A DNA stretch of 64,000 bases from Loxodes magnus (taxonomy: Eukaryota > Ciliophora > Karyorelictea > Loxodida > Loxodidae). The notes beneath the pieces were generated by a model that ran no database searches, was not told the origin of the DNA, and saw only the letters and a program-made list of their open reading frames with translations. Both the position numbers and the translations under genes were made by a program. The stretch is from NCBI GenBank assembly GCA_946699065.1, contig CAMPDV010000108.1, positions 1-64,000 on the forward strand, read 5' to 3'. This document shows positions 1 to 64,000 of the stretch, piece by piece. Each line of letters starts with the position of its first letter. Position 1 is the stretch's first letter.

Positions 1-3000
1 CGAAATTCTATCTTCTTTTCTTACTTTCCTTCTTCACTTTTCAAAATACTTATTACTTCTCAAAGCATACTCAATAAAACCGAAATTCTATCTTCTTTTC
101 TTACTTTACTTCTTCACTTTTCAAAATACTTATTACTTCAAGAAGCATACTCAATAAAACCGAAATTCTATCTTCTTTTCTTACTTTACTTCTTCACTAT
201 TCTAAATACTTATTACTTCAAGAAGCATACTCAATAAAACCGAAATTCTATCTTCTTTCTTACTTTACTCTTCACTTTTCAAAATACTTATTACTTCTCA
301 AAGCATACTCAATAAAACCGAAATTCTATCTTCTTTTCTTACTTTACTTCTTCACTTTTCAAATACTTATTACTTCTCAAAGCATACTCAATAAAACTGA
401 AATTATATCTTCTTTTCTTACTTTACTTCTTCACTTTTCAAAATACTTATTACTTCTCAAAGCATACTCAATAAACCGAAATTCTATCTTCTTTTCTTAC
501 TTTAATTCTTCACTTATCAAAATACTTATTACTTCTCAAAGCATACTCAATAAAACCGAAATTCTATCTTCTTTTCTTACTTTACTTCTTCACTTTTCAA
601 AATACTTATTACTTCTCAAAGCATACTCAATAAAACCGAAATTCTATCTTCTTTTCTTACTTTACTTCTTCACTTTTCAAAATACTTATTACTTCAAGAA
701 GCATACTCAATAAAACTGAAATTCTATCTTCTTTTCTTACTTTACTTCTTCACTTTTCAAAATACTTATTACTTCTCAAAGCATACTCAATAAAACCGAA
801 ATTCTATCTTCTTTTCTTACTTTACTTCTTCACTTTTCAAAATACTTATTACTTCTCAAAGCATACTCAATAAAACCGAAATTCTATCTTCTTTTCTTAC
901 TTTACTTCTTCACTTTTCAAAATACTATTACTTCTCAAAGCATACTCAATAAAACCGAAATTCTATCTTCTTTTCTTACTTTACTTCTTCACTTTTCAAA
1001 ATACTTATTACTTCTCAAAGCATACTCAATAAAACCGAAATTCTATCTTCTTTTCTTACTTTCCTTCTTCACTTTTCAAAATACTTATTACTTCTCAAAG
1101 CATACTCAATAAAACCGAAATTCTATCTTCTTTTCTTACTTTACTTCTTCACTTTTCAAAATACTTATTACTTCAAGAAGCATACTCAATAAAACCGAAA
1201 TTCTATCTTCTTTTCTTACTTTACTTCTTCACTTTTCAAAATACTTATTACTTCTCAAAGCATACTCAATAAAACCGAAATTCTATCTTCTTTTCTTACT
1301 TTACTTCTTCACTTTTCAAAATACTTATTACTTCTCAAAGCATACTCAATAAAACCGAAATTCTATCTTCTTTTCTTACTTTACTTCTTCACTTTTCAAA
1401 ATACTTATTACTTCTCAAAGCATACTCAATAAAACTGAAATTATATCTTCTTTTCTTACTTTACTTCTTCACTTTTCAAAATACTTATTACTTCTCAAAG
1501 CATACTCAATAAAACCGAAATTCTATCTTCTTTTCTTACTTTACTCTTCACTTTTCAAAATACTTATTACTTCTCAAAGCATACTCAATAAAACCGAAAT
1601 TCTATCTTCTTTTCTTACTTTAATTCTTCACTTTTCAAATACTTATTACTTCTCAAAGCATACTCAATAAAACCGAAATTCTATCTTCTTTTCTTACTTT
1701 AATTCTTCACTTATCAAAATACTTATTACTTCTCAAAGCATACTCAATAAAACCGAAATTCTATCTTCTTTTCTTACTTTCCTTCTTCACTTTTCAAAAT
1801 ACTTATTACTTCTCAAAGCATACTCAATAAAACTGAAATTCTATCTTCTTTTCTTACTTTACTTCTTCACTTTTCAAAATACTTATTACTTCAAGAAGCA
1901 TACTCAATAAAACTGAAATTCTATCTTCTTTCTTACTTTACTTCTTCATTTTCAAAATACTTATTACTTCTCAAAGCATACTCAATAAAACCGAAATTCT
2001 ATCTTCTTTTCTTACTTTACTTCTTCACTTTTCAAAATACTTATTACTTCTCAAAGCATACTCAATAAAACCGAAATTCTATCTTCTTTTCTTACTTTCC
2101 TTCTTCACTTTTCAAAATACTTATTACTTCTCAAAGCATACTCAATAAAACCGAAATTCTATCTTCTTTTCTTACTTTACTTCTTCACTTTTCAAATACT
2201 TATTACTTCAAGAAGCATACTCAATAAAACCGAAATTCTATCTTCTTTTCTTACTTTACTTCTTCACTTTTCAAAATACTTATTACTTCTCAAAGCATAC
2301 TCAATAAAACCGAAATTCTATCTTCTTTTCTTACTTTACTTCTTCACTTTTCAAAATACTTATTACTTCTCAAAGCATACTCAATAAAACCGAAATTCTA
2401 TCTTCTTTTCTTACTTTCCTTCTTCACTTTTCAAAATACTTATTACTTCTCAAAAGCATACTCAATAAAACTGAAATTATATCTTCTTTTCTTACTTTAC
2501 TTCTTCACTTTTCAAAATACTTATTACTTCTCAAAGCATACTCAATAAAACCGAAATTCTATCTTCTTTTCTTACTTTCCTTCTTCACTTTTCAAAATAC
2601 TTATTACTTCTCAAAGCATACTCAATAAAACTGAATTCTATCTTCTTTTCTTACTTTACTTCTTCACTTTTCAAAATACTTATTACTTCAAGAAGCATAC
2701 TCAATAAAACTGAAATTCTATCTTCTTTTCTTACTTTACTTCTTCACTTTTCAAAATACTTATTACTTCTCAAAGCATACTCAATAAAACCGAAATTCTA
2801 TCTTCTTTTCTTACTTTCCTTCTTCACTTTTCAAAATACTTATTACTTCTCAAAGCATACTCAATAAAACTGAAATTATATCTTCTTTTCTTACTTTACT
2901 TCTTCACTTTCAAAATACTTATTACTTCTCAAAGCATACTCAATAAAACCGAAATTCTATCTTCTTTTCTTACTTTCCTTCTTCACTTTTCAAAATACTT

Positions 3001-6000
3001 ATTACTTCTCAAAGCATACTCAATAAAACTGAAATTCTATCTTCTTTTCTTACTTTACTTCTTCACTTTTCAAAATACTTATTACTTCAAGAAGCATACT
3101 CAATAAAACTGAAATTCTATCTTCTTTTCTTACTTTACTTCTTCACTTTTCAAAATACTTATTACTTCTCAAAGCATACTCAATAAAACCGAAATTCTAT
3201 CTTCTTTTCTTACTTTACTTCTTCACTTTTCAAAATACTTATTACTTCTCAAAGCATACTCAATAAAACCGAAATTCTATCTTCTTTTCTTACTTTCCTT
3301 CTTCACTTTTCAAAATACTTATTACTTCTCAAAGCATACTCAATAAAACCGAAATTCTATCTTCTTTTCTTACTTTACTTCTTCACTTTTCAAAATACTT
3401 ATTACTTCTCAAAGCATACTCAATAAACCGAAATTCTATCTTCTTTTCCTACTTTAATTCTTCACTTTTCAAAATACTTATTACTTCTCAAAGCATACTC
3501 AATAAAACCGAAATTCTATCTTCTTTTCTTACTTTACTTCTTCACTTTTCAAAATACTTATTACTTCTCAAAGCATACTCAATAAAACCGAAATTCTATC
3601 TTCTTTTCTTACTTTACTTCTTCACTTTTCAAAATACTTATTACTTCTCAAAGCATACTCAATAAAACCGAAATTCTATCTTCTTTTCTTACTTTACTTC
3701 TTCACTTTTCAAATACTTATTACTTCTCAAAGCATACTCAATAAAACCGAAATTCTATCTTCTTTTCTTACTTTACTTCTTCACTTTCAAAATACTTATT
3801 ACTTCTCAAAGCATACTCAATAAAACCGAAATTCTATCTTCTTTTCTTACTTTACTTCTTCACTTTTCAAATACTTATTACTTCTCAAAGCATATCAATA
3901 AAACCGAAATTCTATCTTCTTTTCTTACTTTACTTCTTCACTTTTCAAAATACTTATTACTTCTCAAAGCATACTCAATAAAACCGAAATTCTATCTTCT
4001 TTTCTTACTTTACTTCTTCACTTTTCAAAATACTTATTACTTCTCAAAGCATACTCAATAAAACTGAAATTATATCTTCTTTTCTTACTTTACTTCTTCA
4101 CTTTTCAAAATACTTATTACTTCTCAAAGCATATCAATAAAACTGAAATTATATCTTCTTTTCTTACTTTACTTCTTCACTTTTCAAAATACTTATTACT
4201 TCTCAAAGCATACTCAATAAACCGAAATTCTATCTTCTTTTCTTACTTTACTTCTTCACTTTTCAAATACTTATTACTTCTCAAAGCATACTCAATAAAA
4301 CCGAAATTCTATCTTCTTTTCTTACTTTACTTCTTCACTTTTCAAATACTTATTACTTCTCAAAGCATACTCAATAAAACTGAAATTATATCTTCTTTTC
4401 TTACTTTACTTCTTCACTTTTCAAAATACTTATTACTTCTCAAAGCATACTCAATAAAACCGAAATTCTATCTTCTTTTCTTACTTTACTTCTTCACTTT
4501 TCAAAATACTTATTACTTCTCAAAGCATACTCAATAAAACCGAAATTCTATCTTCTTTTCTTACTTTAATTCTTCACTTTTCAAAATACTTATTACTTCT
4601 CAAAGCATACTCAATAAAACCGAAATTCTATCTTCTTTTCTTACTTTACTTCTTCACTTTTCAAAATACTTATTACTTCTCAAAGCATACTCAATAAAAC
4701 CGAAATTCTATCTTCTTTTCTTACTTTACTTCTTCACTTTTCAAAATACTTATTACTTCTCAAAGCATACTCAATAAAACCGAAATTCTATCTTCTTTCT
4801 TACTTTAATTCTTCACTTTTCAAAATACTTATTACTTCTCAAAGCATACTCAATAAAACCGAAATTCTATCTTCTTTTCTTACTTTACTTCTTCACTTTT
4901 CAAAATACTTATTACTTCTCAAAGCATACTCAATAAAACCGAAATTCTATCTTCTTTTCTTACTTTACTTCTTCACTTTTCAAAATACTTATTACTTCTC
5001 AAAGCATACTCAATAAAACCGAAATTCTATCTTCTTTTCTTACTTTCCTTCTTCACTTTTCAAAATACTTATTACTTCTCAAAGCATACTCAATAAAACT
5101 GAAATTATATCTTCTTTTCTTACTTTACTTCTTCACTTTTCAAAATACTTATTACTTCTCAAAGCATACTCAATAAAACCGAAATTCTATCTTCTTTTCT
5201 TACTTTCCTTCTTCACTTTTCAAAATACTTATTACTTCTCAAAGCATACTCAATAAAACCGAAATTCTATCTTCTTTTCTTACTTTACTTCTTCACTTTT
5301 CTAAATACTTATTACTTCTCAAAGCATACTCAATAAAACTGAAATTCTATCTTCTTTTCTTACTTTACTTCTTCACTTTTCAAAATACTTATTACTTCTC
5401 AAAGCATACTCAATAAAACGAAATTCTATCTTCTTTTCCTACTTTAATTCTTCACTTTTCAAAATACTTATTACTTCTCAAAGCATACTCAATAAAACCG
5501 AAATTATATCTTCTTTTCTTACTTTACTTCTTCACTTTTCTAAATACTTATTACTTCTCAAAGCATACTCAATAAAACCGAAATTCTATCTTCTTTTCTT
5601 ACTTTACTTCTTCACTTTTCTAAATACTTATTACTTCTCAAAGCATACTCAATAAAACCGAAATTCTATCTTCTTTTCTTACTTTACTTCTTCACTTTTC
5701 TAAATACTTATTACTTCAAGAAGCATACTCCTTAAAACTGAAATTCTATCTTCTTTTCTTACTTTACTTCTTCACTATTCTAAATACTTATTACTTCAAG
5801 AAGCATACTCAATAAAACCGAAATTATATCTTCTTTTCTTACTTTACTTCTTCACTTTTCAAAATACTTATTACTTCTCAAAGCATACTCAATAAAACCG
5901 AAATTCTATCTTCTTTTCTTACTTTACTTCTTCACTATTCTAAATACTTATTACTTCTCAAAGCATACTCAATAAAACCGAAATTCTATCTTCTTTTCTT

Positions 6001-15599: not shown

Positions 15600-15895
15600 T
15601 TAGAGAGTTTCGGACTGCAACTTCTTCTCATTTTACGATCCCAACACTGGCTTCATGGGATATCGGCGATATCCTGTTTCTTTCGAAAAGCTCTTCCTTT
15701 AGCTCCATCGCTATTGGCAGCCAGGCTTCAACCCCCTACCTGGAGTGGATAATCAAGAGAAAGGCTTTTCCTTTCAAAGGTTGACTTTGATCAGTGACTT
15801 TCTCACTTCGTTAAAGGAGCTTGTTCCTATCTATAAGACCTGAAAGTATGATTCGGAAGGTCTATCTCAGCTCCCACCTTTTTAATTATCATTTC
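15600..15895 (-). mobile_element. Dispersed repeat family A, copy 1
   Basis: A less AT-rich patch whose reverse complement matches the patch at 37880-38165. Shared words include ggtgggagctgagat, gcgatgga and caggatatc. Read on the minus strand with TAA/TAG as Gln, one frame gives a conserved GVEAWLPIAMEL segment; the other copy gives GFEAWLLIAMEL. The two copies therefore probably descend from a protein-coding mobile element. Frame is not kept along the whole patch, so this is a remnant. The element type was not recognised. Confidence 0.6.
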
Positions 15896-16389: not shown

Positions 16390-17105
16390 TCATGCACCAA
16401 AATCTAAAATTTTCAAATCAAAAAAAAACAAAAACTTTCAAAACCAAAACTTAAATCTTTAAAACCAAAATACAAAATCGAAAGTTTTCAAAAACAAATC
16501 CAAAATTTTCATAACCAAAATCAAAACTTTTTCAAAACCGAAATCAAAAATTTCAAAACCAAAATCAAAAATTTCAAAACCTAAATCAAAAATTTCAAAT
16601 CCTAATTCAACAATTTTCAAGCCCAAATCAAAAATTTTCAAAACCGAAATCAAAAATTTCAAAACCAAAATCAAAAATTTCAAAACCTAAATCAAAAATT
16701 TCAAATCCTAATTCAACAATTTTCAAGCCCAAATCAAAAATTTTCAAAACCGAAATCAAAAATTTCAAAACCAAAATCAAAAATTTCAAAACCTAAATCA
16801 AAAATTTCAAATCCTAATTCAACAATTTTCATAACCAAAATCAAAACTTTTTCAAAACCGAAATCAAAAATTTCAAAACCAAAATCAAAAATTTCAAAAC
16901 CTAAATCAAAAATTTCAAATCCTAATTCAACAATTTTCAAGCCCAAATCAAAAATTTTCAAAACCGAAATCAAAAATTTCAAAACCAAAATCAAAAATTT
17001 CAAAACCTAAATCAAAAATTTCAAATCCTAATTCAACAATTTTCAAGCCCAAATCAAAAATTTTCAAAACCGAAATCAAAAATTTCAAAACCAAAATCAA
17101 AAAAA
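16390..17105. repeat. Minisatellite, about 107-bp unit of 18-bp subunits
   Basis: Tandem blocks built on an 18-bp subunit of the type aaaaccgaaatcaaaaatttc. A marker subunit (cctaattcaacaatttt) recurs at about 16600, 16707, 16813, 16920 and 17027, giving a unit of about 107 bp (six subunits). Because the period is near a multiple of three, the minus strand yields long repetitive frames with an FDFGFEI-type hexapeptide. These are best read as by-products of the repeat, since all frames are periodic and there is no non-repeat domain attached. Confidence 0.85.
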
Positions 17106-17271: not shown

Positions 17272-18093
17272 TTGACGTTTTTCGCCATTTTCACGGCTTC
17301 TAACTCATTAAAATTTAATCTGCTGCACATTAAATGCAGTACATCAAATTTTTCCTATCGTAAAAACACATAATGCAACTTAAAAATAGTAACAAACGTA
17401 ATTAAATTTTATAACAAATTGAAAAAAAAACTTCGCGCTTACACTTAACTCAAAAATTTTTATGACACTATACTATAAAATTAAAAAATTTTATCTCTAG
17501 CACATAACTCAAAAATTTTCCTAACACTAGAAAAATTTAAATATTTTTACTCTAGTACATACTTCAAAAATTTTTCCAATACTAAAAATCAAAATTATTT
17601 AGCTGAGTATATACCTCGAAAATTTTTTCAACACTGGAAAATTTGAAATTTTTTTAACTCTAGTACTTACTTCAAAAATTTTCCTTACACTAGAAAATTA
17701 AAAGAATTTTAAGTCTAGTATGTACTTCAAAAAATTTTCAAACACTTTAAAAAATTTGAAATTTCTCTAACACTTGATTTTAAAATTGAATTAAAAAAAA
17801 TATTAATAAAAATAACTAAATTCAATAAAAAGACTTAGAAAAAATTACGAACTTTAAAACTTTTTTAAATTTAATTGTAATTATGATATTAAGAGTAAGA
17901 ACATAAGCAATAATAATAAAGACTTAACAATTTTAATATTATTTAAATGTAAATATTAAATAGTTTAAACAGTTTAGATAGTTTAAATTCGAATAGATCA
18001 CTTGATGTATCTCTACCTATCCTCCACACTCATTATAGTATTAGCCATTACACAATTGTTAAATGATAATCCATAGTCAGCATATACTTTATT
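17272..18093. repeat. AT-rich spacer with a degenerate 60-bp tandem array
   Basis: From about 17440 to 17780 there are roughly six degenerate copies of a 60-odd-bp unit containing ctctagtacatacttcaa and aacactagaaaattt words. The rest, up to the end of the WD40 gene, is AT-rich and shows nothing recognisable. Part of 17800-18093 will be the 3' untranslated region of the gene to the right. Confidence 0.6.
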
Positions 18094-20337
18094 TCAGTCA
18101 GTCTACTAAATGTGGTGTGTTAAATTAAAACTTACCTATTATTAGCTAGTTGTTTATTCTCCATTCAATAGCCTTCCTAAGTTCCATCTTCGAGTGTTGT
18201 AGTCTTTTGATTAAGCAGGATATATACTTCCATTACTTGATACCAACCATTAATTGTCACTAGATAATGATAAACTACCCACAGTGTCCGTATGACCCAT
18301 AAGTACACAGATACACTATCCAGTATTGATATTTCAGATTCTTATGGTCTTGTCATGAGATCCAGATAAGATATACTTGTTGTTACTTGAGAATATTACC
18401 GAATAGACATAAGATGAGTGTCCCGATAAGACCTTTGTACATTATTGTGTTCTTGAGTTCCATAAACGAATAGTTTCGTCATCCGATCCAGATATGATGT
18501 AAGTGGAATCACTAGATATAGCCACAGCATATACATAACTAGTGTGACCACTCATGGTCTTACAGGTACCTGTCTTGACGTCCCATAGTCTCACCGTCTT
18601 ATCTCAACTTCCCGATACGATGAACTCTGAATCACTGGATATAGCCACAGATGATACAGAACTAGTGTGACCACTCATGGTCTTACAGGTACCTGTCTTG
18701 ACGTCCCATAGTCTCACCGTCTTATCTCTACTTCCTGATACGATGAACTCTGAATTACTGGATATAGCCACAGATCATACATAATGTGTGTGACCACTCA
18801 TGGTCTTACAGGTACCTGTCTTGACGTCCCATAGTCTCACCGTCTAATCTAAACTTCCCGATACGATGAACTCTGAATTACTGGATATAGCCGCAGCATA
18901 TACACAACTAGTGTGACCACTCATGGTCTTACAGGTACCTTCAGCTATGTTGTAGAGTCTTAGAGTTTTGTCAAATGATCCAGATACTATTAAGTTAGCG
19001 TTTGGTGAGATGGCCACGGATGTGACTGAGTTTGTGTGTCCAGTGTATATGTGTGGGTGCTCGGAAGAGATTGAGGTAAGATTGACATTTGAGAGGTCGC
19101 AGTTAATGAATTTTGTATTTCTGAGGTTAGTGGTAGTTAAGTTTGAATTGGAGAAGTTGCAGGAGGTGAAGGTGGTGTCAGAGAGATCAGCATTAGATAT
19201 GTCGATGCTTGATAAGTTTTATTACGTGAAATTATAGTTCATGAAGTTCAATAGAGTTAAAGTGTTCGAGGCTATTTAAGATAATCCCTGTTGAGTTTTA
19301 GATAACTAGATTATCTGATTTAACTTTGAAAGTATTTATTAGTCGGTTACTTAATGTAATTTTAACAAAATTTTTCCTTAGCTAATCAATCCTGACTTAT
19401 TTAGAGGATTTTACTTCAACGTTAATTGATTGAAATTCTCTTCCTTTATCTGGTTTAAGAACTTATTTAAATTTTCGAACGTTATGTTTGTAAAATCCTA
19501 GATTGCATATTTGCTCACTATTTATTACTCTTGATTTTAAGCTTATATCTAAACTAAAGGCTATATTGTAATGCTTGTTACTTAACAAAACTCATTCACT
19601 ACATTTGCTTGCTTGAAATAGTTTTGAATTAGCATCTCTGCCTCATTTAACGTTAATTGCTAGCCGTTAGAATTCTAACTTAAATAACTGAATACCTTGA
19701 ACATACATGATTGAACGACATTTCTTAGATTTTGTATGCTCATTTGTTAGTTCTAAATTTTTTTTAACTCAGTTATTTCTTACATTATTAAATTGAATTC
19801 TTATTAATTATTTTTTTCTAGATTTTACTAGTATTAACCCAATGGCTATTATTAAAATTCACTTGATATCTGAAGCTTAGATAAACGCTTCAGTAAATTC
19901 TTGCTCTTATTATTTGTACCATAAATTTAATCAGTTAAAATTTTTAGTATCTACTGAAATGCCAAAGCCTAGATACTTTGCATATATTAAGAACTTTCCT
20001 ATATAACTTCTTTTATTTCATTATGGTAACTTTATTTTTGAATCTAATATCCCTGTAACCACTTGTATTATTCTTTTATCTGTACTTATTCACCAATTTA
20101 GATCTATTAATGTCTTGGTATTTGCTACTGCACTTGCAGTTAAACTACATATCCTTGTAACTATTCAGGCTGTATGTAGTAAATTTAGTTGTGTTATGCA
20201 CATTCGATTTTTTTTGTAAGTTGAAATACTGTTTAAAAACACTTCAAACATGAACTACATCCACATGGTAATTATTTGTATAATCGCTTGTCTTAATTGA
20301 ATTGCTTTTTACAGTTTGGACACTGATTGCTATCCAT
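18094..20337 (-). CDS. RING-like / pentapeptide / WD40 repeat protein, 747 aa
   Basis: Probably a scaffold or ubiquitin-ligase-like protein. Reading TAA/TAG as Gln and TGA as Trp gives one unbroken, intron-free frame from the ATG at 20337. Residues 6-49 form a RING-like zinc finger (C6, C9, C25, C27, C30, C33, C46, H49). Residues 50-365 are Gln-rich and coil-like. Residues about 366-425 are pentapeptide repeats (ISNADLSDTTF, LTTTNLRNTKF). From about residue 430 to the end there are seven WD40 repeats of the GHTxxVxxVAIS...VSGSxDKTVRLWDVKTG type. Repeats 2-4 are almost identical in DNA, so they arose recently. In-frame TGA codons at residues 521 (YVxSVAIS), 578 (SGSxDKT) and 668 (IRIxNIN) sit at typical Trp positions. 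I took the TGA at 18096-18094 as the stop because similarity ends before it; this is uncertain. The RING ligase role is inferred. Confidence 0.93.
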
Positions 20338-20940
20338 TTATAAAGATTAAAAAACAATTTAGTATATAGAAACTAATTATATTGAAATAAAAATTGATAA
20401 ATTATTTTTATTATTTAAAAATCAAATTTAAAATTTAAAAATTTAAATTTGCGAAATATTTAAATATTTTTAAAAGAAAGAAAATTAAACAAATATATAT
20501 AAAAAAAATCCTAAAAAATAACAAATTAAAAATTTAAACTAGAACAAAAAAAATTTTCTGCAAATTTTTTTAGCTTAGAAAAAAATGAACTTATATAATA
20601 TAAAAAAACTAATATCATATTGACTATACATTAAACATTTTAGTATGATGGTTAAAAATAAATATACTAGAGATTTTTAAGAATGAACAATTTATAACTA
20701 AAAAAAATATTAGAAATTAATGAATTTAAAACAAATTTAAACAGTTATTTCACGAAAAAATGATCAAAAATAATATATATATAAGATTTTAAAAAAAATA
20801 TCTTAAAAAAATAAAAAAAATGGTGGACTAACCAAAATTATTTTTATTTAGCTTATAAAAAAAAGAATAAAGCATGAAATATCTATAATTACATCCACAT
20901 CATCTTAAAAATTAATTTTTTTATAAATAATAAATATGGT
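20338..20940. other. AT-rich upstream region of the WD40 gene
   Basis: Extremely AT-rich sequence with A and T runs immediately 5' of the RING/WD40 gene. It probably includes that gene's promoter, but no specific element can be assigned. No coding signal was seen. Confidence 0.5.
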
Positions 20941-29029: not shown

Positions 29030-29116
29030 CACTATGTAATAATTAGAATAGTGTGATTATATATCTCCTATTATTTTAAATTTAGTTAAATAAATAATAA
29101 ATAAATGAGATTATAG

Positions 29117-29142
29117 TGCGCATAACACCTCAATGGAGCGTA
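29117..29142 (-). repeat. Dispersed hairpin motif, copy 3
   Basis: The core acacctcaatggagcg is shared with copy 2. The flanks tgcgc and gcgta pair with one wobble. On the minus strand it follows the family B element (29215-29370), placed as a 3'-end structure would be. Confidence 0.6.
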
Positions 29143-29214
29143 GTTCTTTAATAAAGATTTTTAAAGTTAAAAAAATTCCGTGCTGAAGTCTTCCACAGTG
29201 CTAGCATTCTCTTG

Positions 29215-29370
29215 TGAATTTTTTCTTCTATAGGGCTGCGATCGGAATGCTATCCTAAGAGACCTTAGTATCTGGCATCTTTCATCATTAATTCTACTTG
29301 ATGCCTCTTCTTTCTTGTCTTCTCTGCTCTTGGCTGGTTCTTCATCTATGGGGTACTTCCTGGTACCAGA
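29215..29370 (-). mobile_element. Dispersed repeat family B, copy 2
   Basis: Inverted relative to the copy at 23560-23735, sharing gacctaagg-type complement words such as agaccttagtatctggcat. On the minus strand it is followed within about 75 bp by two hairpin copies, consistent with a SINE-like body plus 3' stem-loop. Coding potential is unclear: the conserved stretch can be read in a frame rich in Lys, Arg and Glu, but the two copies do not keep a single common frame convincingly. Confidence 0.65.
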
Positions 29371-56117: not shown

Positions 56118-57170
56118 CTCTTACTGTGCTCTTCAATTCCTAAAAAATAATTAGATATATAAAGATACTAAAATAGGAAAAGTAAACTAAAATATCTATT
56201 TAGAAGAATTGTGAGATAATTAAGTATCTCATACCAACTCCTACAGGCAAATACCAATAAGTATCTAAGCTAATCTTTATTAGTTTTAGGTAAAGGAACA
56301 CTTATTCTAGTACTCTTTTTGCTCAAATTATAGTAATTTATGTTTATCCTTTTATAATAATATATCTTTATTTATTAGCTTCCAAGATCCTAGATGCTAC
56401 TCATTAAAATAAGCTCTTTTTCTATTTAATTGCTAAATATTAAAAAATTCTTGGCTCTATTTGAACCCTTAACTCTTAATTTAGAAGACTTAGAAAACTT
56501 ATTAGCTAACTGTTGTGTCAGAAGGCCTTATACTATTATTAATTTCCTAAAAAGTAGCTAACAATTAAATTAATTGATTTTAATTAAATATGCTACTAAG
56601 CTTTATTTCTAGTAAGCTTAGATTTATTTATAATTTTTTAGTTTTATATTAAATTAGCTAATTTAAAGGAATTATATATAAGTTATCTATACTATTGGCT
56701 AGTTAATTATACTTCCTGCTTCAATAATTATAAAGAATCCTAATATTATTAATTCCTTTTAGTCCTTTTGCTTTTCCCTTATATAAGAAACTTGGAGGAC
56801 TTATTTTTATTAACTTATCATATAATTTCTTAGCTCTCACTACTTTTTAAACTGATTATATAAAAAAGTAAATAAGCCTACTTAATATAGAATGTATAAT
56901 AAAGACTAATTGATTATATAGCTGAAGTATCTCTAATCTAATTAAATAAAGCATAATAATAATCCTTATTTAGATTAGCTATATTAAACTACTATTATTA
57001 TATAAGTCATTTGCTTATTAAACTTATTTCAATTTAATATTATCAAAGCAAAGCTTGAGAGATTAATCTAAAGCAAAATGTATTATTGTAAATTAATATG
57101 AAAGTACTTTAGAAACTTAATTAAGAACTGAGAAAAAGTTAAGATTGCTAAAACTATAAGCGGAAAGTAT
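56118..57170. other. AT-rich spacer before the prokaryotic block
   Basis: Very AT-rich, no gene recognised. At about 57150-57250 the base composition shifts towards the less AT-rich block that follows. Confidence 0.45.
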
Positions 57171-57297
57171 CTTTTTCTGAGGAAGTTGAAAAAGAGGCAT
57201 CTTAATGTAAAGGGATCTTCTCTACGGTGAAGTGATTACAAAAAAGTTAACTAAACTTAGGAAAAAAGATTCTATTTAATATTTTCGAGTTTGAAAT

Positions 57298-57477
57298 ATG
57301 ATGGATTCTATTTTAGAATATCCTAACCATGATTATAAATTTTTGACTCACGACATTAAAGGTATTAATAGAGCTCAGTTAGGAAATTTTGTCTTAGTTT
57401 TTAGTGTGGATCATATCAATAAAACTGTCTCTTTTGAAGATTATAACCATTATGACTTCATCTATAAGAAAAAGTAA
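57298..57477 (+). pseudogene. RelE/ParE-superfamily toxin, C-terminal remnant
   Basis: The 59-residue frame resembles the C-terminal half of RelE-type mRNA interferases of bacterial and archaeal toxin-antitoxin pairs. It has a strand-pair segment of the form LGNFVLVFSVD followed by INKTV and the typical ending HYDFIYKK. The frame closes with TAA exactly where the family ends, so it obeys a prokaryotic code and not the host code. The N-terminal half is not intact upstream, and no antitoxin gene was seen. It is a non-functional fragment. The family call rests on pattern memory only. Confidence 0.45.
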
Positions 57478-58370
57478 GTCCCAAGCTCCGTTTTTCTAAA
57501 TAGCCTCAACTCAAGTAACGTAAAACTTACGGTTAACCGAAGTCGTGAGTATTTAAAAATGTGTAGAGGTAGCATGCTGAGCATTTTTCAGAAATGAAGA
57601 ACAATTTGGATGGAACGAAGCGAAACTACAAATGACCGAAGGCTAAATATTTGAGCACATGAATCCTTTTAGCTACGATAAAATATTTTTGAGAAAAGTC
57701 AAGTTGTACTTATATATAGTCGGGAACTAATTATTTTTCTCTTGGGCAAATTGGAACTAATCATGTTTATTTCCTTTTTTCTCGAAGACTCCCTCAACAA
57801 GCAACAGAGAGTGTGAACTGAAATTTTCAGAGGGAAAAAGTTCAAAACTGTAGGCTGAGAAAATATAACAAAGGAAAAAATTTTATTTCTCAAAAGAAAG
57901 TTCGACAGTTATGTATTTATTGTCAATACATTTACAGTCCTTTCTTTCAAAAAACATTATCTGTGAGTATCTAATATTTCTAATTTTTATTCATGCAATC
58001 TATAGGACATGCCAACTTACAATCAAAACCTATTTTACAGGATATATAAATTGGAAACATCTGAATTTTTAGAACATTCGATTAGTACAAAAATTGAAAA
58101 TAATATCAACAACAGGATTAATAATAAGATCGTTCTTTTTTTTATGACATATATTGAGTATAAATTGTACAAATAGCTTTCATTATACTTTCTTTCGAGT
58201 AGTATTAAGCCTAATCAATGTTAACTTCTCTCCAAATACTTGAGGAGGCGAAAAGCTTATGACGAGTAGACCATGCTTTTACAGTTGAGAATTTGTCAAA
58301 TATAAAATAAAAAATATTACACTAGAAAATATAGTTTATCAGACTCGTCGAGAGAGAGGATTATCTTATT
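57478..58370. other. Intergenic part of the prokaryotic-type block
   Basis: Less AT-rich than the ciliate flank. It contains unusual G-rich words such as gaacgaagcgaaac and atgaccgaaggc near 57615-57645. No protein family was recognised on either strand; short protein-like pieces occur in several frames (e.g. about 57780-57950). Confidence 0.4.
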
Positions 58371-58765
58371 TCAGCTGAAGCAAATCCCATAAAACACCAT
58401 ATAAGTCTTCGAAGACTGCAACTGTTCCGTAGGATTCTTCTTTTAGTCCTCTAGCAAATTTAATTTCTTTTAAAATCATTTCATTCCAGTCTCTCTAAAA
58501 GTCATCATTATTAAGAAATAGAAATACCCTATAACCAGATTGATTATCAATTAAAAGATTCCTGTTCATGTTTTGATGCTTTTGCAAGTAATAAAGTTGC
58601 TCCACTTGAATCAGGATGAGAAATTACTACCAAACGTTTGTCTTGTTAAGGTCGATATGCATCTTCAACTAAAGAGAAATTTAGTTTGTTGGTATAGAAA
58701 TAAATAGTTTCATCGTAATCTTTTACAATCAAAGCAATATAGACTATTGATTGCTTTATATTTTA
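58371..58765 (-). pseudogene. VOC/glyoxalase-superfamily protein, frameshifted
   Basis: Members of this superfamily are small metal-binding dioxygenases, isomerases or resistance proteins. On the minus strand the typical order is seen: SIVYIALIVKDYDETIYFYT (first beta-alpha unit), KRLVVISHPDSSGATLLLAK, then after a one-base shift at about 58555 NQSGYRVFLFLNNDDF, and at the end YGTVAVFEDLYGVLWDLLQ, where the Glu of VFEDLYG is the usual metal-ligand region. Two in-frame stops occur by the standard code (TAA after YRP, TAG after NNDDF where relatives often have Trp). The start codon appears lost (ATA). The orientation is opposite to the neighbouring archaeal-type genes. Confidence 0.7.
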
Positions 58766-59049
58766 GTGAATGTATGTGTCTTATTTAATATTTTTGCTAT
58801 ATTAATTAAAAGAAAGATTCTCAATTGAAACTAATCAAGTTATATTCTTCGAAGCGTAGCTGAGGACGGAATACGAAGAATTTCGAGTAGAGAAAGCTAT
58901 AAAAACAGAAAAATTCATATATAAGTTACTACTAACTAGTAATGACAGAAACACAATCTTTGGGAAATCTCTTGGAAAGGGTACTGACTTTAAGAACCTA
59001 GGCAAAAATCAGAGTAATCAGTAATTTTATCTGTTTACAGGAATTGAGA
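58766..59049. other. Intergenic part of the prokaryotic-type block
   Basis: Contains the words cgaagcgtagctgaggacgg and ttcgagtag at 58850-58890, reminiscent of the G-rich words near 57615. No coding signal was identified. Confidence 0.35.
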
Positions 59050-59560
59050 TCCAAATGTGAAGTACTCTGCAGTATTTAATGATTTATCAAAGGCATTTCC
59101 TGAATTTCCTCCTTCAAAAGTAATTTTAATTAGTCAAATGAGATGATATATGAAATAGTAAATGGTTATACTGCTTCTGGACCTGATTTAGAAAAACATC
59201 TTCTTGGATATCTTAAACGAAAAGGCATCTCTGAAACAAACATTATTAAAATAGATGTAGATTTATTTTAAGCTAGCCACTTTCTCTATTATATAATCGA
59301 GGCTATGTTCTCTCAAAGAGACGAACGATTATATGAAATATATGAGCGAAGATTATGACGCAGAAATTTTTCTCTTAAGCACATTCTGTTTCAAAAAGAA
59401 TTTCTCACTAGCATTGATGGAGCTAATCACGTTCCCCTATAAAATAGAGCGTTGTGGTAAGTGGAATAGGATTTTTTATATTTTCTCTCAAAAATCAGTC
59501 AGTTGCTGGTTAGTGAGAAATTTTCTATTATTATAGTACGCAATAGAGAAAAATTCAGAG
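59050..59560 (+). pseudogene. Unrecognised prokaryotic-type coding fragment
   Basis: Well-formed protein sequence on the plus strand that I cannot assign: VFNDLSKAFPEFPPSKVI, MIYEIVNGYTASGPDLEKHL, GYLKRKGISETNIIKIDVDL and AMFSQRDERLYEIYERRL, then a TGA and SLKHILFQKEFLTSIDGANH. The TGA lies in an Arg-rich run and looks like a CGA to TGA change. A frameshift lies near 59140. Composition and decay pattern match the archaeal-type genes to the right. Confidence 0.45.
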
Positions 59561-59688
59561 TAATATTTAATATAACAATGTTATGCCCCTCTCCCTCTTG
59601 AATTCTCACCAAAAGAGCTATTTTTGAGTGCTAGAACTAACAAAAAGGAAAATATTTTAAGAAAACGAAGCTCCCTGAGAAAGTAACA

Positions 59689-59877
59689 ATGCAGGAGATC
59701 TTTTATTCAAGCAATCTAAGTTTTGATGTTTCCATCAGTGCCATTCCCACAATTAATAAGCTAATTGCAACAGGTACAGAGATATCTCCACTCCCTAAGA
59801 ATATTGAAATTGCACTACTTGAGCAAAATATAATTTCGTTTATAAATCCGATTAAACTAAAAGTTTCCTTTTTCTAG
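59689..59877 (+). pseudogene. Unrecognised small ORF, 62 codons
   Basis: An ATG-to-TAG frame with good protein character: MQEIFYSSNLSFDVSISAIP, TINKLIATGTEISPLPKNIE, IALLEQNIISFINPIKLKVS. It is short and may be the start of a truncated gene. No family recognised. It lies 80 bp before the recombinase remnant on the same strand. Confidence 0.4.
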
Positions 59878-59956
59878 TAACTATAATAGATAAGTAGGTG
59901 AGATATTTAAAGTAGTTTTGTTTGGATAACAGTAAAATGATATTTTTAAATTAATA

Positions 59957-60750
59957 TGAAATTAGACGCTCAAAACAGGATTAAGCATCTGGACAATCAC
60001 AACTTATCTTAATTATATACAAAGATTATTTATACAATATACAAAGGATCCTATTGAAATTAATATGACAGATATAAAGGATTTTCTTCATAGATTAGTT
60101 GACAGAAATTTGCCGGGAAATACACTAATTTGCATATGACCAGCCTTAAATTTTCAATATCAAGAAATTGCATAAAAGGCTCTTACTCAGGATATGTTAT
60201 TAGAAATACCCAAAAAAGGTTACCAAATTTTTTAATAAAGGCCTTTTTTAATGCTATTGATAATCCAAAGCACAAGCCTATTATGAAGCTTATCTATTTA
60301 TTAGGATTATGAGTAAGTGAGGTTAAAAAAGGATAATATTGAGATTGAGCAAGGATTTAGATGGGAACTTAAAGGCAAATGTAACAGGATAGTGATTGTC
60401 ATTGCAGACAGCCTGAAGGACGAGTTAAAGGAGTATCAGAGGAATAGTAATAGTTCATGGCTTTTCTCGAGGAGAAATGGACATCCTACTGTCCAGAATG
60501 TGCAGCAAATTTGTTGAGCAATTGTCTTAAGTGCTGTTATTGAAAAGAATGTATATCATCATACCTTAAGGCATACCTTTGTAACTCATCTTACTAAGAA
60601 TGGCTATGATGTTAGATCAGTTTAATTCTTACTAGACCATTTTAGCATCCAGGCAATTATGAGGTATGTACAAATGGTTATGCCCAATATGATCTCTGAT
60701 CAAAAGTCCCTTAGATAGCTTACTATGATAACCAACAACTATTTTTCTTA
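59957..60750 (+). pseudogene. XerA-type tyrosine recombinase, inactivated
   Basis: Remnant of an archaeal XerA/integron-integrase-type site-specific recombinase. N-terminal core-binding pieces: ITTYLNYIQRLFIQYTKDPI and INMTDIKDFLHRLVDRNLP. Catalytic domain: DNPKHKPIMKLIYLLGL, TGA (60310-60312) where the family has the first catalytic Arg of GLRVSE, KKDNIEIEQGFRW, VIVIADSLKDELKEY, then HTLRHTF with the second Arg intact (about 60570), VRSVxFLLDHFSIQ (TAA at x), and IMRYVQ with a candidate Tyr. At least four frameshifts separate these pieces. Relatives known to me from DPANN archaea are close in wording. A transposon-encoded recombinase is less likely, as the neighbours are housekeeping genes. 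Confidence 0.82.
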
Positions 60751-60859
60751 GAACGGATAAATACTGTGTCAAAAAATCAAAATGGAAGTAGGACATATAA
60801 AACTGGGATGATTATTGCAAGAGACAAGGTAAAAGAATCGTCAAATACCCGTAAAAGTT

Positions 60860-61470
60860 AATATGAAAGAAAGCTTTTGGAAGCCAAAAAATCTCAATAT
60901 TTTAAACTCAGACTAACTTGCTGACAAGCTTCATATGGGTAAAACTTGGAGATTTTATGAATTATTCAGGAATAGGGTTGTTTTCCTTGGCATAGAAGCA
61001 ACAGACGTTCTTAAATATGATGAGCTTACTGACATTGGCTTGCTTGATGGGATTGATACAAAGATAATGTTAAAGGCATTAATCTCAATCTTTTTGCATT
61101 AAAACAGAAATTAAGCAAATATAGCCTTATTGTTACCTTTAATGGAGCATCTTTTGGCATACCTTTCTTAAAAAGAAATGCTCTGACATACTACCTAAAA
61201 TCCCACTCTTTATCGTAAAGACAGCATGCAGGAGAATAGAGTTAATTGGCAGCTTAAAAGAAATTGAAAAGCAGCTTGGCATACACGAAATAAGATAATA
61301 AAAGATTTTATGGCCATTATACTGTGGGCTTATGGAGAATGCATCAGGCAAGACGATGAGTATTATGTAAAGCTACTCTTTAAATACAATGCAGAAGATG
61401 TTGTTAATCTCAAGATAATAGCTGACTTTACAATAGATAGGCTACAAGAAATAGTGACTCATCCCTAGAA
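60860..61470 (+). pseudogene. RNase H-like exonuclease (COG3359/YprB-like), frameshifted
   Basis: Predicted 3'-5' exonuclease of the RNase H fold. Pieces in order: MKESFWKPKNLNIL; GKTWRFYELFRNRVVFLGIE followed by ATD (first acidic motif, normally D-I-E-T, here G-I-E-A); DELTDIGLLDGIDTK; ALKQKLSKYSLIVTFNGAS (about 61110) with FGIPFLKR (normally FDxPFL, so the acidic residue is changed to Gly); CRRIELIGSLKEIEKQLGI (about 61225); and IRQDDEYYVKLLFKYNAEDV followed by VNLKIIADF (about 61345). Three or more frameshifts and loss of two acidic residues make it inactive. In archaea such a gene next to a helicase is plausible for DNA repair. Confidence 0.78.
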
Positions 61471-61539
61471 ATTAGTTTATAGTATCCAATATATCTTTCT
61501 GCTTATGAAGTGAGTAGATTAAGGAAATAATTCCAAAAT

Positions 61540-62215
61540 AAATTTATGAAATGCTTTAAAAGAAAAAGTATTGGAACTAAGTCCAACACAAATGGAGGTA
61601 ATAAAAGCAGAATTATTGAAAGAAAAACATCTCTTTATGTAAATGCCAGCTTCTTTATAGAAAAAAATTAAACGCAAAAATTATATCACTTACATCTCTT
61701 ATTTAAGGAAAAAGGGAAGCTATTTGCATAGTCCCATTAGAGGCACTTACATCTAAAAAATACAAGGAATTCGAGATAAAATTTGAGTATTTTGTCAAAT
61801 TTGCTCCTTCTATTGGTGACATTAATGTATGTGAGCCCTATCTTGCAAAATATAACTTGATCATAATCACAAGCGAAAAGCTGGACTAATTGCTTAAGCA
61901 TCATGCGCCCTGGATTCAAAGCATTTAATTTATTATCATTGATGAAATCCATCTTCTCAAAGATCCGGAAAGAGACACAATACTTGAGATTTTAATAACA
62001 ATGTTGCACCAGATTCTTAGGCATGTCCAGATTATTGGGCTATCAGCAAGATTGGCAAGTAAGGGGAATTAGCTGGCTGACTTGATGCAGAACTGGCTGA
62101 GGATGATTAGCTTCCTGTAAAACTGTGCAAGGGAGTGTACTTTAAGGGAGAAATTGAGTTGATGAATAGGTTTTTAATACTAAGATATTCCATTTTTAGA
62201 AAAGTTATAATTTAC
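61540..62215 (+). pseudogene. Hel308-type Ski2-like helicase, N-terminal half only
   Basis: Archaeal Hel308/Hjm helicases act at stalled replication forks. Visible here: KVLELSPTQMEVIKAELLKE (Q-motif-like region, about 61570), a garbled segment where Walker A should be (MPAS, then no GKT), AICIVPLEALTSKKYKEFEI (motif Ia), YNLIIITSEKLDxLLKHHAP (TAA at x), FIIIDEIHLLKDPERD with the DEIH box at 61941-61952, and VQIIGLSA (motif III, ends SAR where SAT is usual). After a frameshift it gives LPVKLCKGVYFKGEIELMNR. The sequence then stops: the second RecA domain and C-terminal domains are absent, and the transporter begins at 62217. Walker A loss and truncation make it dead. Confidence 0.82.
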
Positions 62216-62216
62216 A

Positions 62217-63470
62217 GATGTCACTAACGTTTATATCAATTTTTGACAAGGACTTAAGGGAAATATTATCTTCCCAGATTGTCTCCATACTAGATGGTTT
62301 GATTGCAAACTCGATTCTGGTTGCTTACACTCATAAGATTCTATTAATTCCTGGTATGTTTACTCTTTTCCCTGACTTTCTTTAAATGATAGGAAATATT
62401 AGTGGAATACTTGCAGCACAGCTTAGCTCAGGCTTGTATTTTGAATATATTAAGCCTAACTAGATGCGCTCAAAGGTAATAAGAGAGAATTTATAGAATC
62501 CTTTGCAATGGCTGTCTAATCTCATTGGTCCAAGGTATATCTACATTGCTGTTTAATCTTTGCTTTTACTCAACTTTTAGCCCAAAATTATTTTAGTGCC
62601 TTTTAATACAGGGATAATTACAAGAAATTGATATTCATCTGACCCTTTTTATAACATTCTATCTTTTCCGGAAAAAGTATGACCCGAATAACATCATAGG
62701 TCCGTTTGTAAGCTTAGCAGGTTATATAACAGGTTTTGCTGCATTGCTGGCAACCTTTCTACTGCTATGAAAATCTAAAAAGAACTCAAAATCCTGAGCA
62801 AGATAAGAAGAAAATTTTACCATTCGCTTATTTAAAAAGGGGCATAAAAATACGGGATTTCTAAAAAACACTTCTATACATAAAGGAATATGACTCTCAT
62901 ACGAAAGTGCCAAAAGCAATACCTAAGGAAAGTTTTAAGATTCTGCTTCTAGCGTCATTAATTAGTTCAAGCTGTCTTGTTATTGAGTGCATCGAGACTA
63001 CTTTTATCTCAATCATTCCCCTTATAATTATAATGTCTTCCTTAAATGAAGTAATTAGTGTTTAAGGTATGATAATATCAGCATTAATTTCAACCAAACT
63101 GTATGAGAGAAAAGTAACAAAAAAATGGTGGAAGATAAAGGAGCTTAAATAACTATTTTTGCAAGTTCTAATAACTGTCATGGTTTTGGGTATTGTTATA
63201 TCAATAGTGGCTCTGATTATCCAGTTACTCAGAGAAGTCTGCCAGAGGCATAGCAGTAAAATATAGCTCGTCATTATTTTCGATATAAGAATTTTAGTAA
63301 GCATACTCTACTAATTTCAGTATTTTCGGACCTTTATTTCTACAAAAGGCGGGAAGATTCAAATAACTTTTTAATAGCGCTTACAACTTCGATTGGTGAT
63401 TTTGGGAATGCATTATTCTTATTTTTGCTCTTTATTCTCTTTGCTGAATTTAGTAAGTATGGGATATATC
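62217..63470 (+). pseudogene. MgtE/SLC41-type magnesium transporter, broken
   Basis: Two-half divalent-cation channel of the membrane domain type found in archaea. First half: FDKDLREILSSQIVSILDGL, KILLIPGMFTLFPDFL, GNISGILAAQLSSGLYFEYI (about 62395), then after a shift LTLFITFYLFRKKYDPNNII, GPFVSLAGYITGFAALLATF and a TGA at about 62768. Second half: ESFKILLLASLISSSCLVIE, IPLIIIMSSLNEV, ISALISTKLYERKVTKKWWK (about 63090), and LIALTTSIGDFGNALFLFLL (about 63390). Four or more frameshifts and several TAA/TAG codons interrupt it. The paired motifs P-x(n)-GNISG and DPNN-x-GPFVS are characteristic. Wording again closest to DPANN archaeal relatives as I recall them. Confidence 0.82.
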
Positions 63471-64000
63471 ATAGCAATAGAAAAAATTATATATACTCAA
63501 ACTTTAATGTATTGCATGGAATTTACAGGAGCACAAAGAATCCAGCTAATTCGATGTAAAGTTCTTTGAGGAATAAAAAAATAATTTGAACCAAAGAAAC
63601 CTAAGTAAACTGTACAGAATGAAATTGAAAAATCAAGAAAACAAAGAAGAAAAACAATCAGGTATCCGTAAGACAGCTTGAGCAAGAGCCCATGACCATT
63701 AAAATCTTTTTCTATGTTCTTCCGGTAAAAACGAGGAATTAGTACAATATTCATATCTATTCACCTGGTGACATTACTATTCTAACTACATTCCAATCAA
63801 TGCTTGTTGTATATATTCTTGGGACAGCTAATTTTATGACGAACATAATTCATATTTTGAAGACTCTCTGCGGGTACGCTTTTGATGAAGAGCTCAAGCA
63901 TGAATTAAATCAAATTAAAATTCGCATTAAAGTAAATATGATATATGATAGATGACACGAAGCAGTAACTCATTTACGAATTTTTCATTAAGACTCATGA
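63471..64000. other. End of window, unassigned prokaryotic-type sequence
   Basis: Composition is as in the archaeal-type genes. On the plus strand at about 63750-63900 the segment SPGDITILTTFQSMLVVYIL followed by KTLCGYAFDEELKHELNQIK looks coding, but I do not recognise it. The block probably continues past the window. Confidence 0.35.

Follow-up and report, generated by a model that had tools for sequence, protein, structure and literature searches.

A decayed block of archaeal genes in the nuclear DNA of the ciliate Loxodes magnus, very probably a multiplied fragment of a DPANN (Woesearchaeota-like) chromosome

Inserts of bacterial or organelle origin are known from nuclear genomes, and it is with these that the locus described here is to be compared. 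The sequence analysed, referred to below as the window, comprises 64,000 nucleotides from the karyorelict ciliate Loxodes magnus (positions 1 to 64,000 of the forward strand of contig CAMPDV010000108.1, assembly GCA_946699065.1; the contig is called C108 below), and its right end carries nine remnants of archaeal genes lying between about 57,031 and at least 63,442. We know of no resident relation of a DPANN archaeon with this host. In the open-licence literature, no report was found of a eukaryotic nucleus holding an insert of several archaeal genes, still less one from a DPANN archaeon. A Rickettsia-derived gene cluster has been reported in Loxodes magnus (PMC11441545), in an article whose main text holds no word beginning with "archae". 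The best reading of the present block, which we hold with high confidence, is that a contiguous fragment of a DPANN (Woesearchaeota-like) chromosome was integrated into the nuclear DNA of the ciliate, decayed, and was then multiplied; integration is best placed long ago, and part of the decay preceded the copying. Nuclear integration of a multi-gene archaeal segment had been proposed in an earlier note made from the letters of the window, and is now backed by the identity of the genes, by a clade of split Hel308 sequences, and by diverged copies sharing flanks and lesions.

All six frames of 57,000-64,000, with stop-type codons read through, were searched against Pfam, and the three forward frames also against NCBIfam. 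Profile matches were obtained for XerA (NF040815, expect value (E) 3.3e-23), Hel308 (PRK02362, E 1.3e-30; Pfam DEAD, E 3.6e-12) and, on the minus strand, VOC/glyoxalase (E 2.3e-8); those for RNase_H_2 (E 0.0028, Pfam), MgtE (E 0.019) and YafQ/RelE (E 2.8e-5) lie below the cut-off. Frameshift-aware alignment of XerA, the RNase H-like protein, Hel308 and both MgtE halves to archaeal references gave scores of 290-466, compared with 29-46 once the references had been shuffled (5 shuffles each). These five remnants lie on the plus strand, near full length and tiling almost gene to gene: a XerA tyrosine recombinase (59,978-60,722; residues 13-267 of 267; 87/247 identical to locus L171, the best of 30 references; 3 frameshifts), an RNase H-like protein (PF13482; 60,725-61,450; residues 1-246 of 262; 115/246 identical to L167, the best of 6 references; 9 frameshifts), the N-terminal gene of a split Hel308, Hel308a (61,518-62,158; residues 6-218 of 220; 107/213 identical to L002; 3 frameshifts, Walker A lost), and two MgtE-like halves, a (62,239-62,767; residues 2-179 of 180; 76/178 identical to L137, the best of 7 references; 4 frameshifts) and b (62,785-63,442; residues 11-233 of 233; 97/219 identical to L137; 2 frameshifts). 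The run from XerA to MgtE resembles a closely spaced archaeal gene cluster, and the piece was therefore probably contiguous in the donor.

Four further remnants precede this run. An antitoxin remnant (57,031-57,202, plus strand; residues 17-75 of 75; 29-31 of 57-58 residues identical to loci L201-L203 and L208; 2 frameshifts) is followed by a RelE/YafQ-type toxin (57,220-57,471, plus strand; residues 5-88 of 88; 54/84 identical to the L201 open reading frame (ORF); no frameshift), in which two stop-type codons are possibly sense in the host. The antitoxin and RelE genes overlap or abut in all four archaeal loci examined (L201-L203, L208), and the archaeal piece seems to end within the antitoxin gene, whose first 16 residues are unaligned. 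On the minus strand lie a VOC/glyoxalase remnant (58,345-58,809; 105/155 identical to the L200 ORF; 2 frameshifts; 74% nucleotide identity over 472 bp) and a protein of about 57 amino acids, judged by eye to be a membrane protein (59,706-59,870; 41/55 identical to the L204 ORF; no frameshift). The block as a whole (57,031-64,000, plus strand) is traced by homology to 63,442 and by its G+C content, 0.312 over 57,031-63,442 versus 0.222 over 30,001-57,000, beyond the window: values near 0.31 continue to about 66.0 kb of C108. No tRNA was found in the window, and no Rfam family reached its gathering score there. The earlier note had assigned XerA, RNase H-like, Hel308 and MgtE remnants to the plus strand and a distinct base composition to the block, and scan, alignment and G+C content bear it out on both counts. 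Its starting point, 57,170, does lie in archaeal DNA, but the edge is nearer 57,031, within the antitoxin gene, and the supposed RelE tail is in fact a nearly full-length gene. The VOC protein placed beside the archaeal remnants is indeed present but belongs to the block, as does the small membrane protein; and the statement that all remnants are broken by frameshifts applies to XerA, the RNase H-like protein, Hel308, MgtE, VOC and the antitoxin, whereas RelE and the small membrane protein have none in this copy.

The signature of the donor lineage is carried by Hel308. Genome contigs were scanned with a Hel308 alignment, and of the 502 relatives confirmed the best 80 were taken. Hel308 is split at 50 of these 80 loci; the first 30 are all separate ORFs of 218-235 amino acids, 21 of them in records named as Woesearchaeota and the others in records of Nanoarchaeota, Nanoarchaeia or further archaea. 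Among the matches listed for 234 genomes of the class to which the Woesearchaeota metagenome-assembled genome of L002 belongs, the N- and C-terminal parts lie in different places in many genomes. Judged from its aligned extent, the window Hel308 is the complete split N-terminal gene of a Woesearchaeota lineage, and the MgtE alignment starts 81 bp past its end. The earlier note had suggested phylogenies of four proteins; in the tree built for Hel308 (83 rows, midpoint root) three ciliate copies stand in the split Woesearchaeota clade, together with 49 of the 50 split sequences (support 94/82). A Hel308 truncated by decay was also considered and was rejected, since the remnant aligns over residues 6-218 of a naturally separate 220-amino-acid gene.

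At the nucleotide level, matches to the block (E 1e-3; best 1.9e-81) occur in 99 of 378 genomes of the class, many of these matches being short. The strong ones fall on VOC (74% over 472 bp), antitoxin-RelE (75-77% over about 360 bp) and the membrane protein (82% over 176 bp), and Hel308a, RNase H and MgtE rank next. For the adjoining 2.6 kb on the right, a shorter query, 19 of the 378 genomes gave a match, the best at 7.2e-6 over 37 bp.

Several observations weigh against this reading of origin and decay. The bootstrap of the Hel308 tree had not settled, and its value of 94 falls short of its mark of 95. A protein-database search with XerA gave no match, and even the best of 30 archaeal references shares no more than 35% identity with XerA; the corresponding search with Hel308, which demands exact words and like length, returned as its only matches two full-length proteins at 47%, one of them named as Methanothermococcus. 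The VOC gene is also 71% identical in nucleotides to plasmid records, three from Paraclostridium and one from Vibrio. The gene order has not been met in living archaea: another block gene accompanies Hel308 at E 1e-3 in 0 of the 80 loci, and the arrangement of the block was seen in 0 of 30 MgtE and 0 of 30 RNase H loci taken with 1.5-kb flanks. To the right of 63,442 (63.5-66 kb), the searches assigned no gene. Finally, in four comparisons between copies, taken up below, first codon positions have changed somewhat more than the others (p 0.071, 0.022, 0.024 and 0.008).

The missing synteny concerns the donor species, not the donor lineage. Under relaxed search settings, L065 showed a stretch resembling RNase H some 6 kb away from its Hel308 (E 2e-6), and L076 showed two weak recombinase-like stretches at distances of 1.2 and 2.6 kb from its own (E 0.003-0.006). 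Several separate insertions, or a patchwork of bacterial and archaeal DNA, might nevertheless be proposed in place of one archaeal fragment, given the VOC relatives on Paraclostridium plasmids, the failure to find the gene order in the archaeal loci examined, and best references that come from different genomes. Such a composite origin is unlikely: the genes from XerA to MgtE adjoin one another close to their boundaries on a single strand, VOC has a closer match in an archaeal genome of the class searched at nucleotide level than on the plasmids, and matches in that class were likewise obtained for antitoxin-RelE, the membrane protein, Hel308a, RNase H and MgtE. VOC as a separate clostridial insert, a candidate considered in its own right, is likewise weakened by the closer archaeal match. 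Two observations were made in passing among the Hel308 loci. In one archaeal genome (L112, G185:C76) a split Hel308a lies about 1 kb from a different kind of MgtE gene, on opposite strands, and Hel308-type genes occur in records named as bacterial (L041, L058 and L080; Omnitrophota, Parcubacteria and Thermotogaceae), perhaps misbinned or transferred.

The block is not confined to the window, a point that, like the split state of Hel308, the earlier note did not see. A DNA search of the ciliate's own genome (query 57,100-64,000; only the best candidates scored) yielded 68 rows on 32 contigs including C108, the 31 other contigs matching at 77-91%. C10 and C145 match the whole query at 89% and 87%, C383, C343 and C237 match large parts of it, and 26 rows match query positions 2335-4872 at 84-85%. 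A second copy on C108 (C108b; 94,949-105,928; 80-89%) was missed by the whole-genome search. Contigs may include alternative haplotypes, and their count need not equal the number of true loci; C145 and C383 are 98.5% alike, and C1051 and C2484 have identical match coordinates. Between C108 (56,868-71,386) and C10, 90% homology runs unbroken over the right edge into AT-rich DNA and continues in pieces to 74,327. The left edge is repeated on at least five other contigs—C10, C145, C383, C343 and C237—in diverged copies. One left flank is common to these five and another to both C108 copies; the two kinds divide near 56,868-56,881, and a short AT-rich stretch common to the copies (56,868-57,030) lies between this point and the archaeal edge. 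By assembly, the block is thus joined to host DNA on both sides, at the left edge on C108 and the same five contigs, and at the right edge on C108 and C10.

A misjoin of an archaeal contig to ciliate DNA, or contamination by a culture symbiont, would be the familiar explanation for archaeal genes in such data, as protist assemblies often contain prokaryotic DNA. Matches on 31 other contigs at 77-91%, several of them sharing flanks, together with lesions common between contigs and frameshifts at each of 11 aligned places, make it very improbable here. The earlier note had further named, as a sign of chimeric assembly, an archaeal genome matching the block unbroken at near 100% identity; none was found among the 378 genomes of the class, the best DNA matches being 74-82% over 176-472 bp.

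An inner part of the block (59,434-62,778, plus strand, without 61,972-62,151) has DNA matches elsewhere in the genome. The left flank of the inner copies is itself repeated: 40 places were scored of 210 candidates, 9 at 98-100% and 31 at 91-93%. The latter may be empty sites; the query stopped at the junction, and the genome search with the block listed only the best places. A Pfam scan of the inner-copy flanks gave nothing above the cut-off. In a tree of 11 copies, rooted by choice on C108b, C237 branches off next, and the four inner copies tested cluster as a late burst whose terminal branches measure 0.3-0.7%; with many diverged copies at hand, the order of spread can be traced. C328 and C655 each carry a pair of inner copies, with about 79.5 and 83.7 kb between the members of a pair, a spacing suggestive of a long repeat unit.

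How the lesions of the block are to be read depends on the genetic code of the host. The assembly containing the window comprises 705,730,643 bases in 7,843 contigs; a macronuclear assembly of 706 Mbp and code table 27 have been reported for Loxodes magnus (PMC11441545). Because table 27 has no codon that is always a stop, openness alone is no proof of coding. Unshifted WD repeats do prove it, and they are found in a host gene on the same contig that served as control (WD40 gene, 18,001-20,421, minus strand; seven WD repeats in one unshifted frame, E 8.7e-75). TAA and TAG are used there as sense codons, with Q at TAA/TAG positions, and 548 codons without TGA are followed by TGA at codons 549, 606 and 696, within the WD repeats. 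Its start shows a RING-like Cys pattern, seen by eye and with no Pfam support noticed. Since the host may read TAA, TAG and TGA alike as sense, frameshifts and lost motifs are counted as the real lesions of the block. The five genes from XerA to MgtE in the window copy contain 21 frameshifts in 3,299 aligned bp, and the Walker A motif of Hel308 is, by eye, lost. At 11 of 11 places aligned at least one gene is frameshifted, and XerA is frameshifted at every place where it was aligned.

Many of these changes recur from copy to copy. A XerA frameshift at reference residue 258 is present in all five rows reaching that residue, TAA at MgtE-b residue 105 in 6/6 rows, TAG at RNase H residue 207 in 9 of the 11 rows reaching it, and TAG at Hel308 residue 202 in four of five. 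Part of the decay therefore preceded the copying. The lesions are not all common, two of the four inner copies having no frameshift in their Hel308 part. That the genes are intact and their frames broken by sequencing error only is an explanation that a long-read assembly, with indels as the main lesions, invites. It merits almost no credence given 21 frameshifts in 3,299 bp as against none over the seven WD repeats of the host gene on the same contig, some lesions identical on other contigs, and the lost Walker A motif.

Comparison of the copies gives no indication of purifying selection. Between the window and C10, differences at codon positions 1, 2 and 3 amount to 10.4, 7.8 and 7.9%, and between the window and C108b to 19.7, 14.7 and 17.6%, the highest values; divergence outside the five genes is 9.9-15.7%. 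In none of the four copies compared with the window do third positions diverge faster than the others, and the block evolves without coding constraint. TAA/TAG codons face Q in the references at 2 of 20 sites, as random mutation predicts, and their interpretation as adaptation to the ciliate code was rejected. Use of the block by the ciliate, be it as a domesticated gene set or as a mobile element carrying XerA, might be entertained insofar as the host can read TAA, TAG and TGA as sense and the inner part containing XerA has spread. With TAA/TAG on Q at so few sites, XerA frameshifted wherever it was aligned, and third codon positions diverging no faster, such use is scarcely credible.

The remainder of the window contains repeats of its own. 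At the contig end, its first 15,331 positions consist of an 80-bp satellite repeated over 15.3 kb, with marked asymmetry between the strands (GC skew about -0.8), adjoined by a 106-bp repeat array of 21-bp units (16,486-17,103). Two stretches, 15,705-15,892 and 29,100-29,342, recur on C10 (77%) and further along C108 (81%), and are perhaps parts of interspersed repeats.

For the integrated DPANN fragment, the following course of events may be envisaged. In what was probably a single event, some 6.4 kb assigned by homology—at most 9 kb by G+C content—of a chromosome of the split-Hel308 archaeal lineage would have been joined to karyorelict nuclear DNA, most likely via end joining of a stray fragment, a route favoured because the left archaeal end falls within a gene. 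After entry, coding function would never have been maintained, and frameshifts and substitutions would have piled up while block and flanks were multiplied through segmental duplication. Later, an inner part of 3.2 kb may have become linked to a ciliate repeat and then spread to about 26 more places. The source could be a food organism or a resident symbiont. We offer it as a tentative idea, with the odds rather against it, that the block is the relic of a former intracellular DPANN archaeon, whose inner part became an amplifying nuclear repeat once captured by a ciliate repeat family.

Finding DPANN DNA in the nucleus of a ciliate is relevant to the question whether such archaea live, or once lived, inside protists, since methanogens are called the only known intracellular archaea in a 2025 abstract (PMC12662959). 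Loxodes has been reported to lack extensive genome editing (PMC11441545), and inserted DNA therefore stays readable. The split Hel308 of Woesearchaeota, the closest counterpart at the level of a single gene, has an N-terminal gene of about 220 amino acids with the same end as the ciliate copy, which differs in being frameshifted, in having lost Walker A, and in residing in a eukaryotic nucleus. With nuclear inserts of mitochondrial and plastid DNA (NUMTs/NUPTs) and of Wolbachia, the block has in common that a multi-gene prokaryotic fragment, ending within a gene, has decayed and been duplicated together with its flanks; it differs from them in its donor, here a DPANN archaeon. The Rickettsia-derived cluster of Loxodes magnus (PMC11441545) is likewise a prokaryotic gene cluster in the genome of this host. 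However, that cluster is bacterial and is described as recent, whereas the present block is archaeal, old, decayed, and multicopy.

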